From contig JAJFUB010000013.1 in the NCBI GenBank assembly GCA_021372615.1, positions 1-64,000 on the forward strand: DNA of 64,000 nucleotides, given 5' to 3'. A program made the translations under genes and the position numbers. The notes beneath the pieces were generated by a model that did not search any database, was not told the DNA's origin, and saw only the letters and a list, made by a program, of their open reading frames with translations. Position 1 is the first letter of the stretch; every line of letters starts with the position of its first letter. Source of the stretch: a bacterium (GTDB taxonomy: Bacteria; Armatimonadota; Zipacnadia; Zipacnadales; UBA11051). Positions 37,166-41,091 of this stretch are shown here, piece by piece.

Positions 37166-38236
37166 TCACCTCACTCCGGGCTGCCACCCGAGTCCGGGTA
37201 TGTCCACGCGCACGTTGCGTCCGGCCTCGCCGAAGGCACAGCGCACGCCGGTCAGCTGCTCGATCACGTCGGCATTCGTCTGCAGGTGTCCCGTCAGCCG
37301 CGGCGTCACATACGACGATGGACCGTCGGCCAGGGCGCAGTAAAGCTGCAACTGGTCCGCCAGGCGCTCGTCCACCGTCGCTTCGCTGGCGAGGAAGTCG
37401 CGCAGCTGCCGCCCGGCCTCTGCCCCGACCTCCTCGGCCTTCTTGCCGCGCTCACCGAGTGCGGTGAAGCCCCCGCCGCCGGGCTCGAAGGCTGCCACCG
37501 TCATGCAGGTCGTCCCCGACCCGCCGGACCGTGGCTGCTCCTCGCGTTGCTTCACCGTACCTAACCCCGGCACTTGCGCCGCCGCCGCCTGGTTCTGCCG
37601 CTCGGCAATGTGTCGCGGCAGGTGGTCGGAGACGATGCTGCGGGAGGACAGCCGCCACCCCTGCCCCCGCACCTCCAGCGTCAGCGGTCGCAACGGCCCC
37701 GTCAGTGGCTCCACCCAGGCCTCGATCTCGCCCCCTCCCACCGGGTACCAGCCGGCGCAGTTACGGTGTAGCTCTACTGCCACGCCCATGCGCGCAACCG
37801 TCGGCACGAAGACATCCTGCAGGTATGTGAAGACGGGGCTCCAGGGGACGTCGGTTCCCCCGCGCAGCACTACATGCGAGGCCTGACACGCGAACAGTAA
37901 CGGCGGCAGGATCGCCTGGAGGATCAGTCCCACCGACCCAGCGCTAGGGGCGACATCAGCGACGTCAAACACAAAGCTCCCGCCGGCCAGACCACCTGGC
38001 TGCAGCGCGATGGCCTGCGACCGCAACTCGTCACCTTCCAGGCGGCCCTGGCAGACGGCCGCCACCGCGCGACAGGCTGTCAGGTGCTGCGCAGCCAGAC
38101 CGGGCTTGGGCCGCCCGGCACGGATACTGGCGATTCGCACCGGCTTGCCCAGCACGGCCGCCAGCGATAGGCTGGTGCGCAGCATCTGCCCACCGCCCTC
38201 GCCCCGGGAGCCGTCAATGACCAGTACATCACTCAT
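37166..38236 (-). CDS. rtcA: RNA 3'-terminal phosphate cyclase
   Basis: A 356-aa RtcA/RTC family enzyme that uses ATP to convert RNA 3'-phosphate ends into 2',3'-cyclic phosphates through a covalent AMP-histidine intermediate. Conserved parts include GSRGEGGGQMLRTSLSL at the N-terminus, RAGRPKPGLAAQHL, and HLQTN near residue 320, which holds the catalytic His. It lies between the ACT-like gene (6 nt upstream) and the DUF1844 gene (5 nt downstream). The ligase RtcB is not in the window. Confidence 0.95.
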   Translation of the reverse strand: MSDVLVIDGSRGEGGGQMLRTSLSLAAVLGKPVRIASIRAGRPKPGLAAQHLTACRAVAAVCQGRLEGDELRSQAIALQPGGLAGGSFVFDVADVAPSAGSVGLILQAILPPLLFACQASHVVLRGGTDVPWSPVFTYLQDVFVPTVARMGVAVELHRNCAGWYPVGGGEIEAWVEPLTGPLRPLTLEVRGQGWRLSSRSIVSDHLPRHIAERQNQAAAAQVPGLGTVKQREEQPRSGGSGTTCMTVAAFEPGGGGFTALGERGKKAEEVGAEAGRQLRDFLASEATVDERLADQLQLYCALADGPSSYVTPRLTGHLQTNADVIEQLTGVRCAFGEAGRNVRVDIPGLGWQPGVR

Positions 38237-38622: not shown

Positions 38623-40059
38623 TTGTCCGACCAGTACCGACTTGAGCATGACTTGCTGGGCGCGCGCCAGGTCCCGGCCCAGGCCCTGTACGGCATTCAC
38701 ACGGACCGGGCGCTCGAGAACTTCCCGCTCACCGGCCGTCGCGTCAACCCCGCCCTCGTTCACGCCTATGGGGCCGTGAAGCTGGCATGCGTGCGGACGA
38801 ATGCGGAGTTGGGGTACCTCGAACTGCCCGCCACGACCGAGGCTCTGCAGCAAGCCTGCCACGAGATGATGGAGGGCCTGCTTGATGAGCACGTCGTCGT
38901 GGACGCCCTCCAGGGCGGCGCGGGGACCTCGACCAACATGAACGTGAACGAGGTGCTCGCCAACCGCGCTTTGCAGACCATGGGACTGCCCTTGGGGAGC
39001 TACGAGGTCGTCAGCCCGCTGGATCATGTGAACCTGCACCAGTCCACGAATGACACCTACCCGACGGCGCTGAAGGTCGCGGCGATCAACCTGCTGCGCG
39101 AGTTGGAGCGCGACGTGATCCAGTTGCTCGAGGAGTTCCAGCGGAAGGAGCGCGCCACAGCGGGAGTTGTGAAGGTCGGGCGCACACAGCTGCAGGACGC
39201 GGTGCTCACAACGGTGGGGCGCGAGATGTCCGCTTACGCCGAGGCCTTCGCGCGCGACCGCTGGCGCATCTTCAAATGCGAGGAGCGTCTGCGGGTCGTC
39301 AACCTCGGCGGCACGGCCATCGGCACCGGACTGGCCGCCCCGCGCCGGTACATCTTCCGGGTCATCGAGCACCTGCGCGACATCACCCACCTGGGTCTGG
39401 CACGCGCCGAGAACATGGTCGAGGCCACCCAGAACACCGATGTCTTTGTCGAGGTCAGCGGCATCCTGAAGGCCTGCGCGAGCAATCTGCTCAAGGTCGC
39501 CACCGACCTTCGCCTGCTCTCCAGCGGCCCGGACGCGGGGTTCGGGGATATCCGCATCCCCGCGCGCCAGGCGGGCTCCTCCATCATGCCGGGCAAGGTC
39601 AACCCGGTCATCCCCGAGGCGGTCAGCCAGGCGGCGATGCAGGTGATGGCGAATGACCAGACCATCGCAATGGCGTGCAGCCTGGGCAACCTGGAGCTGA
39701 ACGCCTTCCTGCCGATCATCGCGGATGCCCTGCTCGGCAGCCTGGACCTGCTGCGCCGCGCGTGCGACATCTTCACCCGTCTGTGCGTGAAGGGCATCGA
39801 GCCGAACGAGTCCAGAACGCGGCAGCAGGTCGCCAGCGCCACGGCGACGGTCACGGCGCTCGTGGAGCACATCGGCTACCACAAGGCCCAGGAAGTCGCC
39901 GCTCGCGCCAGCGCGGAGGGTAAGCCCGTCCGCGACGTGGCCGTCGAGATGGGGCTGCTGACGGCGGAGGAGTTCGACGAGTTGACGAGCCCGGAGGCGG
40001 TGACGAGGCTGGGGAGCCCGGAGGGGACGAGTAGGCACGATACCGAATGGGAGGGATGA
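38623..40059 (+). CDS. aspA: Aspartate ammonia-lyase / fumarase superfamily enzyme
   Basis: A 478-aa lyase that interconverts aspartate and fumarate plus ammonia. It matches AspA more than class II fumarase at the N-terminus (RLEHDLLGARQVPAQALYGIHTDRA). It carries STNMNVNEV, the TxxDxxYPTALK region (SPLDHVNLHQSTNDTYPTALK in the protein) and the signature loop GSSIMPGKVNP. The start codon is TTG at 38623 after CGAGGTG. A TACAAT at 38536-38541 may be the -10 of its promoter, but I see no good -35. The next gene begins 3 nt after its stop. FumC-type activity cannot be fully excluded. Confidence 0.9.
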   Translation: MSDQYRLEHDLLGARQVPAQALYGIHTDRALENFPLTGRRVNPALVHAYGAVKLACVRTNAELGYLELPATTEALQQACHEMMEGLLDEHVVVDALQGGAGTSTNMNVNEVLANRALQTMGLPLGSYEVVSPLDHVNLHQSTNDTYPTALKVAAINLLRELERDVIQLLEEFQRKERATAGVVKVGRTQLQDAVLTTVGREMSAYAEAFARDRWRIFKCEERLRVVNLGGTAIGTGLAAPRRYIFRVIEHLRDITHLGLARAENMVEATQNTDVFVEVSGILKACASNLLKVATDLRLLSSGPDAGFGDIRIPARQAGSSIMPGKVNPVIPEAVSQAAMQVMANDQTIAMACSLGNLELNAFLPIIADALLGSLDLLRRACDIFTRLCVKGIEPNESRTRQQVASATATVTALVEHIGYHKAQEVAARASAEGKPVRDVAVEMGLLTAEEFDELTSPEAVTRLGSPEGTSRHDTEWEG

Positions 40060-40062
40060 TGA

Positions 40063-41091
40063 ATGCCAGATATAGGGATTGAGACATACGGATGCGGTGG
40101 CCGTACCAGACAGGTGCTTGGTGATGTCTGCCTCGAAGTCAACGGATGCCAGACCGTCTACCACTGTGCTCTTGGGGACGATCACCGCGCTGATGCGCCG
40201 TCAGTGGACACTGGCTCGCTGGACGCGCTGGTAGAGCAGCTTACTGATGGGGGGCACGTCAAGGTCATCGTCACCGACCTGCCATTTGATGACAACTGGT
40301 TCGCACACCATCGCCGGCGCGCTGCGGTGCTCACGACCGCCGACTGGGATGACTACTACGCGCCTCCGCCGCTGAAGACGTACCTCAAGTACATTCTGGC
40401 GCAGAGCCTGCTTCTGTCGGCCGCCGATCTCGACGAAGACGCAGTGCTCGACCGGCACCCCCATCTCCATCAGACGCATGCATGCTGCTTTGATCTGTGT
40501 GCCTGGAAGACAGACATCCGGTTCGGCCTGCAGTCTGGAGCTTTGTGCCACGAGTGCCGATCACTCCTCCAGCAGATGGGCGCACGGCGCGACGCTATGG
40601 AGGCCGCGGACCAGATCCTCGACCAGGTGCGGTACGAGGCACTCGCACGAGCGCATGCATACGAGCCCCGGTCGGCTTTCGTGGTGATGCCGTTCACCAC
40701 AGCCGGCGACGACAATGAGGAATGCTACAAGTGCGCGATCGCGCCCGCGTTGGAGGACGTTGGCCTGCGGCCGGTCAGGTATGACGAACAGCGCAGGCCC
40801 GGGCGCATCTACGACGGAGTGCTCGACTGCATCGCTCGATGTGGGGTCGTGGTGGCCAAGGTGAACCCGCTCGACAGGGAGCAGTCTGTTCGCCCGAACG
40901 TTGCTCTCGAAGCTGGGCTAGCGTACGGCATGCGCAAACCGACGTTCCTCATATGCCGCACGGACAAGATGGACAAGTTCAAGAAGCGGTGCTCAGACCT
41001 GTCAAACGAGCATCTGGTCGGGTACCGGGTTGGGGCATACGGTGAGTTGCGCGCTGAACTTGTCCAGTGGCTGCGACACTATGCCGGCTAG
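40063..41091 (+). CDS. Cys-rich protein with C-terminal TIR/deoxyribosyltransferase-like domain
   Basis: A 342-aa protein I cannot place in a named family. Residues 1-170 are an unknown domain ending in a Cys/His-rich segment: His136-His139 region, Cys141, Cys142, Cys146, Cys162 and Cys165, a plausible zinc site. Residues 203-342 resemble TIR-like or nucleoside 2-deoxyribosyltransferase-like folds. They start with SAFVVMPF and carry a candidate catalytic Glu283 in PNVALEAGLAYG, with Asp/Asn before it. Such domains often cleave NAD or nucleotides in anti-phage defence, which is only an analogy here. The start has GGGAGGG upstream, 3 nt from the aspA stop. Codon use (CATGCATACG-like stretches) looks less GC-biased than neighbours and suggests recent arrival. 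Confidence 0.7.
   Translation: MPDIGIETYGCGGRTRQVLGDVCLEVNGCQTVYHCALGDDHRADAPSVDTGSLDALVEQLTDGGHVKVIVTDLPFDDNWFAHHRRRAAVLTTADWDDYYAPPPLKTYLKYILAQSLLLSAADLDEDAVLDRHPHLHQTHACCFDLCAWKTDIRFGLQSGALCHECRSLLQQMGARRDAMEAADQILDQVRYEALARAHAYEPRSAFVVMPFTTAGDDNEECYKCAIAPALEDVGLRPVRYDEQRRPGRIYDGVLDCIARCGVVVAKVNPLDREQSVRPNVALEAGLAYGMRKPTFLICRTDKMDKFKKRCSDLSNEHLVGYRVGAYGELRAELVQWLRHYAG

Follow-up and report, generated by a model that had tools for sequence, protein, structure and literature searches.

The window analysed here, a stretch of 64,000 nucleotides, contains a gene at 40063–41091 that encodes a protein of 342 amino acids. This gene had been called in the initial annotation, and chance can be set aside as its origin, since P0003 is a full-length homologue that is 40% identical. 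It lies immediately downstream of aspA, and the spacing of 3 nt between the end of aspA and the ATG, already noted at that stage, was confirmed. The features discussed below are the following:

38623–40059, forward strand: aspA, encoding an aspartase/fumarase-type lyase (Pfam Lyase_1, 2.4e-80; FumaraseC_C, 4.9e-20)
40050–40055, forward strand: Shine-Dalgarno-like GGAGGG, which overlaps aspA at its end and precedes the ATG of the target gene by 7 nt
40063–41091, forward strand: target gene (P0001), predicted pseudo-archaemetzincin joined to a TIR/NDT-like domain, 342 aa (open reading frame; full-length homologue L003, the same protein as P0003)
40063–40632, forward strand: N-terminal domain, residues 1–190, predicted degenerate archaemetzincin fold lacking HExxH (profile homology; model of the relative L033)
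40462–40557, forward strand: retained putative metal-site motif H134-X6-C141-X2-D144-X17-C162-X2-C165; in alignment, H134 takes the place of the third zinc-binding His of archaemetzincins, and C141, C162 and C165 that of three of their four zinc-finger Cys
40669–41088, forward strand: C-terminal TIR/nucleoside-deoxyribosyltransferase (NDT)-like putative effector domain, residues 203–342 (PF05014 and PF10137; DNPH1, NDT and Cap12 structures)
40909–40911, forward strand: codon of Glu283, the predicted catalytic Glu, invariant in 9 of 9 aligned C-terminal domains

We regard aspA as an upstream neighbour that lies outside the system, with which the target gene is possibly co-transcribed; a search for a promoter or terminator consensus gave neither. 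The target protein is present in one copy in its own genome. Its codon use had been described as foreign-looking, and the third-position GC content (GC3) agrees: at 0.737 it is lower in the target than in aspA (0.902) and than in any of 22 ORFs of the window that show a normal coding pattern (range 0.823–0.953). Of 29 window ORFs, 7 were left out of this comparison as antisense shadows, their GC1 being higher than their GC3, and this filter also removes rows with low GC3.

The N-terminal domain defines a small family of nine proteins (the target P0001, P0002, P0003, L021, L022, L032, L033, L038 and L039). No curated model in Pfam, PADLOC, NCBIfam or PHROGs matches it in the target, and no model of Pfam, NCBIfam or PADLOC covers it in the members scanned. 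A Peptidase_S13 match to residues 46–106 (Pfam, 1.4e-3) fell below the cut-off and was rejected. One relative, P0003, comes from another family of the same phylum (40% identity, residues 26–334, E 7.8e-53), and a scan of genome contigs revealed the Oscillospiraceae protein P0002, which is 36% identical to target residues 68–186. A profile of these proteins reached L021 and L022, and a search with L033 led to plasmid proteins of Candidatus Tenderia and Vibrio campbellii. L032 and L033 themselves, which are encoded on viral contigs, were reached by a DNA pattern requiring His, Gly, Cys, Asp, Cys and Cys, while the other seven members came by profile or BLAST. This pattern gave seven loci on viral contigs, of which two are real (L032 and L033) and the other five were rejected after translation; further DNA patterns yielded no additional members on these contigs, and protein-based viral scans returned either none or only the known two.

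Several members carry a hydrophobic C-terminal tail, and this membrane-tail group (A6) aligns with the group of the target (A1) over 142 columns (hhalign 97.1%, E 5.2e-11), the two profiles having no rows in common. Both the homology of the N-terminal domain across the nine proteins and the borders of the domains are established. The initial annotation had placed the end of the domain at a cluster of five cysteines; these residues are indeed present (Cys141, 142, 146, 162 and 165), but the conserved region of the family continues beyond them, to about residue 190.

The domain is sparsely distributed. It was found in 4 of 291 genomes of the phylum of the target, in 2 of 72,556 plasmid records and in none of 50,697 phage records. 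The phylum of P0002 gave one accepted match in 348 genomes and one in 279 (the latter count leaving out a match in G554, 7e-4), which in both cases is the genome of P0002 itself. Three other candidates were discarded: one in G096 (L023, 2.4e-4) has no supporting ORF, contains an internal TAG and was absent from two later phylum searches; one in G341 (L026, 1.5e-4) is not encoded by any listed ORF; and an Agrobacterium match (H3, query 143–346), first taken as a relative, belongs to a protein without the Cys domain.

An identity for this domain was proposed from its motif ahead of the structure search. The pattern H-X5/6-C-X2-D-X17-C-X2-C occurs in 9 of 9 members, although in L032 and L033 this is by construction because the search pattern demanded it, and HExxH occurs in none of the nine. 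The available text of PMC3427221 gives the archaemetzincin signature as HEXXHXXGXXHCX4CXMX17CXXC. In a profile alignment with archaemetzincins of the same phylum (19 of 20 loci, L062 being left out), His134 corresponds to the third zinc-binding His, and Cys141, Cys162 and Cys165 to three of the zinc-finger Cys; the first His of HExxH falls on Leu118, the Glu on a gap and the second His on Ser119, and the position of the Met-turn Met is occupied by Phe143. Cys142 and Cys146 are extra and lie outside the predicted structural metal site formed by the other three Cys. The alignment covers 166 colinear columns with a score of 26.6 and an hhalign probability of only 9%, so the kinship with archaemetzincins is not proven by sequence alone. 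Shuffling the columns 200 times gave a mean score of 12.2, a 95th percentile of 16.8 and a best score that was also 26.6, and the best of 60 unrelated real fragments scored 24.2 (a decoy maximum of 286.4 was taken to be the target itself among the window fragments).

The structure search points in the same direction. The model of the target built from its single sequence was of no use (pLDDT 39.8), and the fold of the N-terminal domain, which the initial annotation could not match, was examined on an AlphaFold model of the L033 domain built from four sequences (pLDDT 73.2, pTM 0.74), which is about 18% identical to that of the target. The best solved matches of this model are archaemetzincins. 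They occupy Foldseek ranks 1–3 in the PDB (2x7m, E 1.0e-5, probability 1.00; 3zvs, 4.8e-3, 0.97; 4axq, 5.4e-3, 0.96), followed by ADAM and venom metzincins, and VIA-align ranks 1–4 (Z 8.7, 8.2, 8.0 and 7.8; rmsd 3.9–4.1 over 147–155 residues), followed by other metzincins, the top Z of 8.7 being close to the level that the tool labels common. No match below E 0.001 was obtained in a viral structure library, and sequence searches of the PDB were uninformative, both with the N-terminal profile and with the complete target. Likewise, PF07998 does not match the target at E up to 10, nor anything in its genome (G000). This model matches in 24 of 151 genomes of the phylum of the window, that of the window itself not being among them. 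Six weak PF07998 places, considered as further pseudo-archaemetzincins, were rejected as zincins, since all six keep HExxH.

The marginal score by sequence and the small number of sequences behind the model would fit an unrelated zinc-binding fold that resembles archaemetzincins by chance. We consider this very unlikely, as fold search and motif converge on archaemetzincins ahead of other metzincins. Given this agreement, the N-terminal domain is taken as a degenerate archaemetzincin and, with three of the four finger Cys kept and the Met absent, as a degenerate relative of M54 rather than a member. Its description as a pseudo-archaemetzincin, in predicted fold as in loss of the active site, appears well supported, and it probably does not act as a protease. 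No published description of the domain or of its fusion was found in a literature search that was thin on subscription papers.

The invariant His, Cys and Asp of the family could also be read as a metal or redox sensor, in which the effector would be switched on, with no protein ligand, when the His/Cys3 site is oxidised or loses its metal. The available text of PMC3427221 discusses oxidation of the Cys4 site as a possible regulation of archaemetzincins; however, it concludes that this site has a structural role and reports unstable Cys mutants, and ordinary archaemetzincins retain the site as well. Such a switch seems highly improbable to us, and we return to a pseudo-archaemetzincin that may bind a protein.

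The C-terminal half had been annotated as TIR/deoxyribosyltransferase-like with Glu283 as candidate catalytic residue, and this assignment is borne out. Residues 203–342 match PF05014 (Nuc_deoxyrib_tr; 6.3e-5, 21.7 bits, gathering score 28.8) and PF10137 (the Cap12/Pycsar TIR; 3.7e-4, 18.4 bits, gathering score 24.7), both below gathering score. VVMPF lies at residues 207–211, and PNVALEAGLAYG contains Glu283, within the E-x-G motif of TIR/NDT-like glycosidases. Nine C-terminal domains, out of 17 sequences at hand (the target, L003 and L004–L018), were aligned, and Phe206, Asp241, Ile249, Glu283, Gly285 and Asp312 are invariant among them. The profile of these nine sequences finds the solved structures of DNPH1/Rcl (5.9e-7), NDT (6.3e-5), a CMP N-glycosidase (0.0031) and Cap12 (0.005). 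The profile matches and the expected catalytic Glu place the domain in the wider TIR/NDT class, and they support a glycosidase-type domain with Glu283 as candidate catalytic residue. Its substrate would be either NAD+ or a (deoxy)nucleotide. P0001 and P0003 have Lys in place of the Asp that many relatives show in the 'aDl' strand, and may therefore differ from them in substrate or even in activity. A search with the whole protein matched 16 of 291 genomes of the phylum, by the C-terminal half only except in the target and P0003. By eye, the TIR/NDT-like domain of L004–L018, all of this phylum, is joined to many different N-termini, such as pentapeptide-like repeats (L007), a macro/aminopeptidase-N-like part (L016) and zinc-ribbon-like parts (L009 and L014).

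According to Pfam, the seven genes near the target encode DUF1844, RtcA, a TM1266-like protein, AspA, an alpha/beta hydrolase, a PQQ-repeat protein and a large protein with weak hydrolase/lectin-type matches; among these seven there is no defence gene, and no cyclic-nucleotide sensor domain, CD-NTase or cyclase. The gene for RtcA (RNA 3'-terminal phosphate cyclase; 37166–38236 of the window, reverse strand) lies two genes upstream of aspA, and no RtcB was detected beside it among the genes scanned there with Pfam.

This setting favours the main rival to a sensor-effector, a house regulator whose pseudo-archaemetzincin would bind a cellular partner and whose C-terminal domain would hydrolyse a modified or damaged nucleotide, as DNPH1 does. 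The position 3 nt behind aspA among housekeeping neighbours would suit it, as would the order of the structural matches, with DNPH1/Rcl and NDT ahead of Cap12, and the regulatory action of the inactive archaemetzincin CarG (PMC3427221, available text). Against it stand the patchy occurrence of the N-terminal domain in the phylum, the low GC3 of the gene and its absence from the aspA loci of three genomes (G258, G274 and G275), where synteny around aspA is limited to the TM1266-like gene of G258 and an empty site could not be demonstrated. The relatives on prophage-like and plasmid DNA and the swapping of fusion partners, both described below, also argue against it. Overall, a house regulator appears rather unlikely, and the sensor-effector remains the reading that we develop.

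The domain is joined to TIR/NDT-like domains in P0001 and P0003, to a Cap12-type TIR in P0002 (PF10137, 2.2e-29), to a hydrophobic C-terminal stretch that by eye looks membrane-spanning in L021, L032, L033, L038 and L039, and in L022 to a metallo-beta-lactamase (5.1e-9) together with an N-terminal part that looks receiver-like. These partners, at least four, suggest by their architecture the pattern of an interchangeable sensor. L022 (L022:751–3150; G274:C113, window order) is an unusual fusion of 799 aa, in the order receiver-like part, pseudo-archaemetzincin and metallo-beta-lactamase.

The surroundings of the relatives had been named as a possible link to defence, and here the picture is divided: the neighbours of the target itself are housekeeping genes, while relatives occur in prophage-like contigs, on plasmids and in one restriction/toxin-antitoxin cluster. 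L032 is on a contig that resembles filamentous phage and encodes a Phage_CRI replication protein, and L033 lies behind the apparent lysis end (by eye) of a tailed prophage, adjoining an HNH gene. The copies on mobilizable plasmids are near an integrase and transposases, or near a group II intron and a death-on-curing toxin. L022 adjoins an IS1380-like transposase and P0003, at a contig end, is near a transposase-like fragment (both by eye). P0002 is encoded between permease genes (by eye), with genes for a PIN protein, an EcoRI-type methylase and GmrSD/HNH nearby. At this last locus (L002:8915–15189), a possible insertion hotspot, the PIN-type toxin-antitoxin, the methylase and GmrSD/HNH break an apparent oligopeptide ABC transporter operon. 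The accessory block around the membrane-tail protein L032 (L032:7006–10231) includes three neighbours without a Pfam match.

An inactive protease fold combined with exchangeable enzymes of toxic type suggests recognition followed by activation. The initial annotation had proposed a stand-alone sensor-effector; the anatomy fits, with a degenerate archaemetzincin and at least four partners, and the protein is tied to defence only indirectly, the gene's own neighbours being housekeeping. As it now stands, the proposal is that a dead protease detects a protein linked to infection and turns on the attached NADase or nucleotide hydrolase, and we see the chances of this as about evenly balanced. Ligand sensing, oligomerisation, substrate and defence role are what we infer for the target protein, as follows. 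Having lost HExxH, the pseudo-archaemetzincin (residues 1–190) would bind a protein instead of cutting it, its structural metal site being kept. The protease-derived cleft and the metal-supported C-terminal subdomain would recognise a phage-derived or damage-linked protein, and this binding would cause oligomerisation or release the C-terminal domain from inhibition. The activated domain would then hydrolyse NAD+ or a related nucleotide by means of Glu283 and stop the growth of the infected cell. More broadly, and still tentatively, the dead archaemetzincin may be an infection-sensing module that bacterial immunity reuses with at least four effectors, of which prophages would carry the membrane type, perhaps as a means of superinfection exclusion.

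Defence systems commonly use TIR-type NADases as effectors. How they recognise infection is mostly obscure, which is why the identity of the putative sensor half matters, and this identity is the new element here.

Among known systems, Thoeris ThsB differs from the target, which has no adjacent ThsA-type SIR2/SLOG gene among its seven neighbours. Cap12/Pycsar TIR effectors share a TIR/NDT-like domain with a catalytic Glu, and the sister protein P0002 has a true PF10137 domain; the target, however, lacks a cyclic-nucleotide-binding domain, its N-terminal domain being archaemetzincin-like. In PADLOC, the single-gene candidate system PDC-S35 (nucleotide-binding/TIR) is matched by P0002 (1.8e-54) but not by the target at E up to 10. 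The match of P0002 starts at residue 119 and is read as mainly TIR because a related Agrobacterium plasmid protein (P0004) lacks the Cys domain.

Archaemetzincins (MEROPS M54, PF07998; 2x7m, 3zvs, 3lmc) share with the target the predicted fold, as modelled for L033 and colinear over the whole domain, and the third zinc-binding His with three of the four zinc-finger Cys. In contrast, the target lacks HExxH, the Met-turn Met, the Cys beside the third His and a match to PF07998, it is fused to a putative effector, and the M54 zinc finger C-X4-C-X-M-X17-C-X2-C is incomplete in it. Unlike the target, CarG of Myxococcus xanthus has, to our knowledge, no TIR-like domain. In the available text of PMC3427221, CarG is an inactive archaemetzincin, part of a transcriptional regulator. 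As predicted for the target, it has an archaemetzincin fold devoid of proteolysis within a larger regulator; it differs in its role in transcription and in that its HExxH is altered at the Glu alone. Swarozyc is, like the target as proposed here, a single protein with a TIR-like NADase and an auxiliary sensing domain, which binds the phage portal and turns the NADase on; it belongs to another TIR-like family (DUF4062), and the available text of PMC13174449 mentions no archaemetzincin-like sensor. By analogy, CarG may serve as a precedent for the inactive-fold half of the target protein, and Swarozyc for its activation half.
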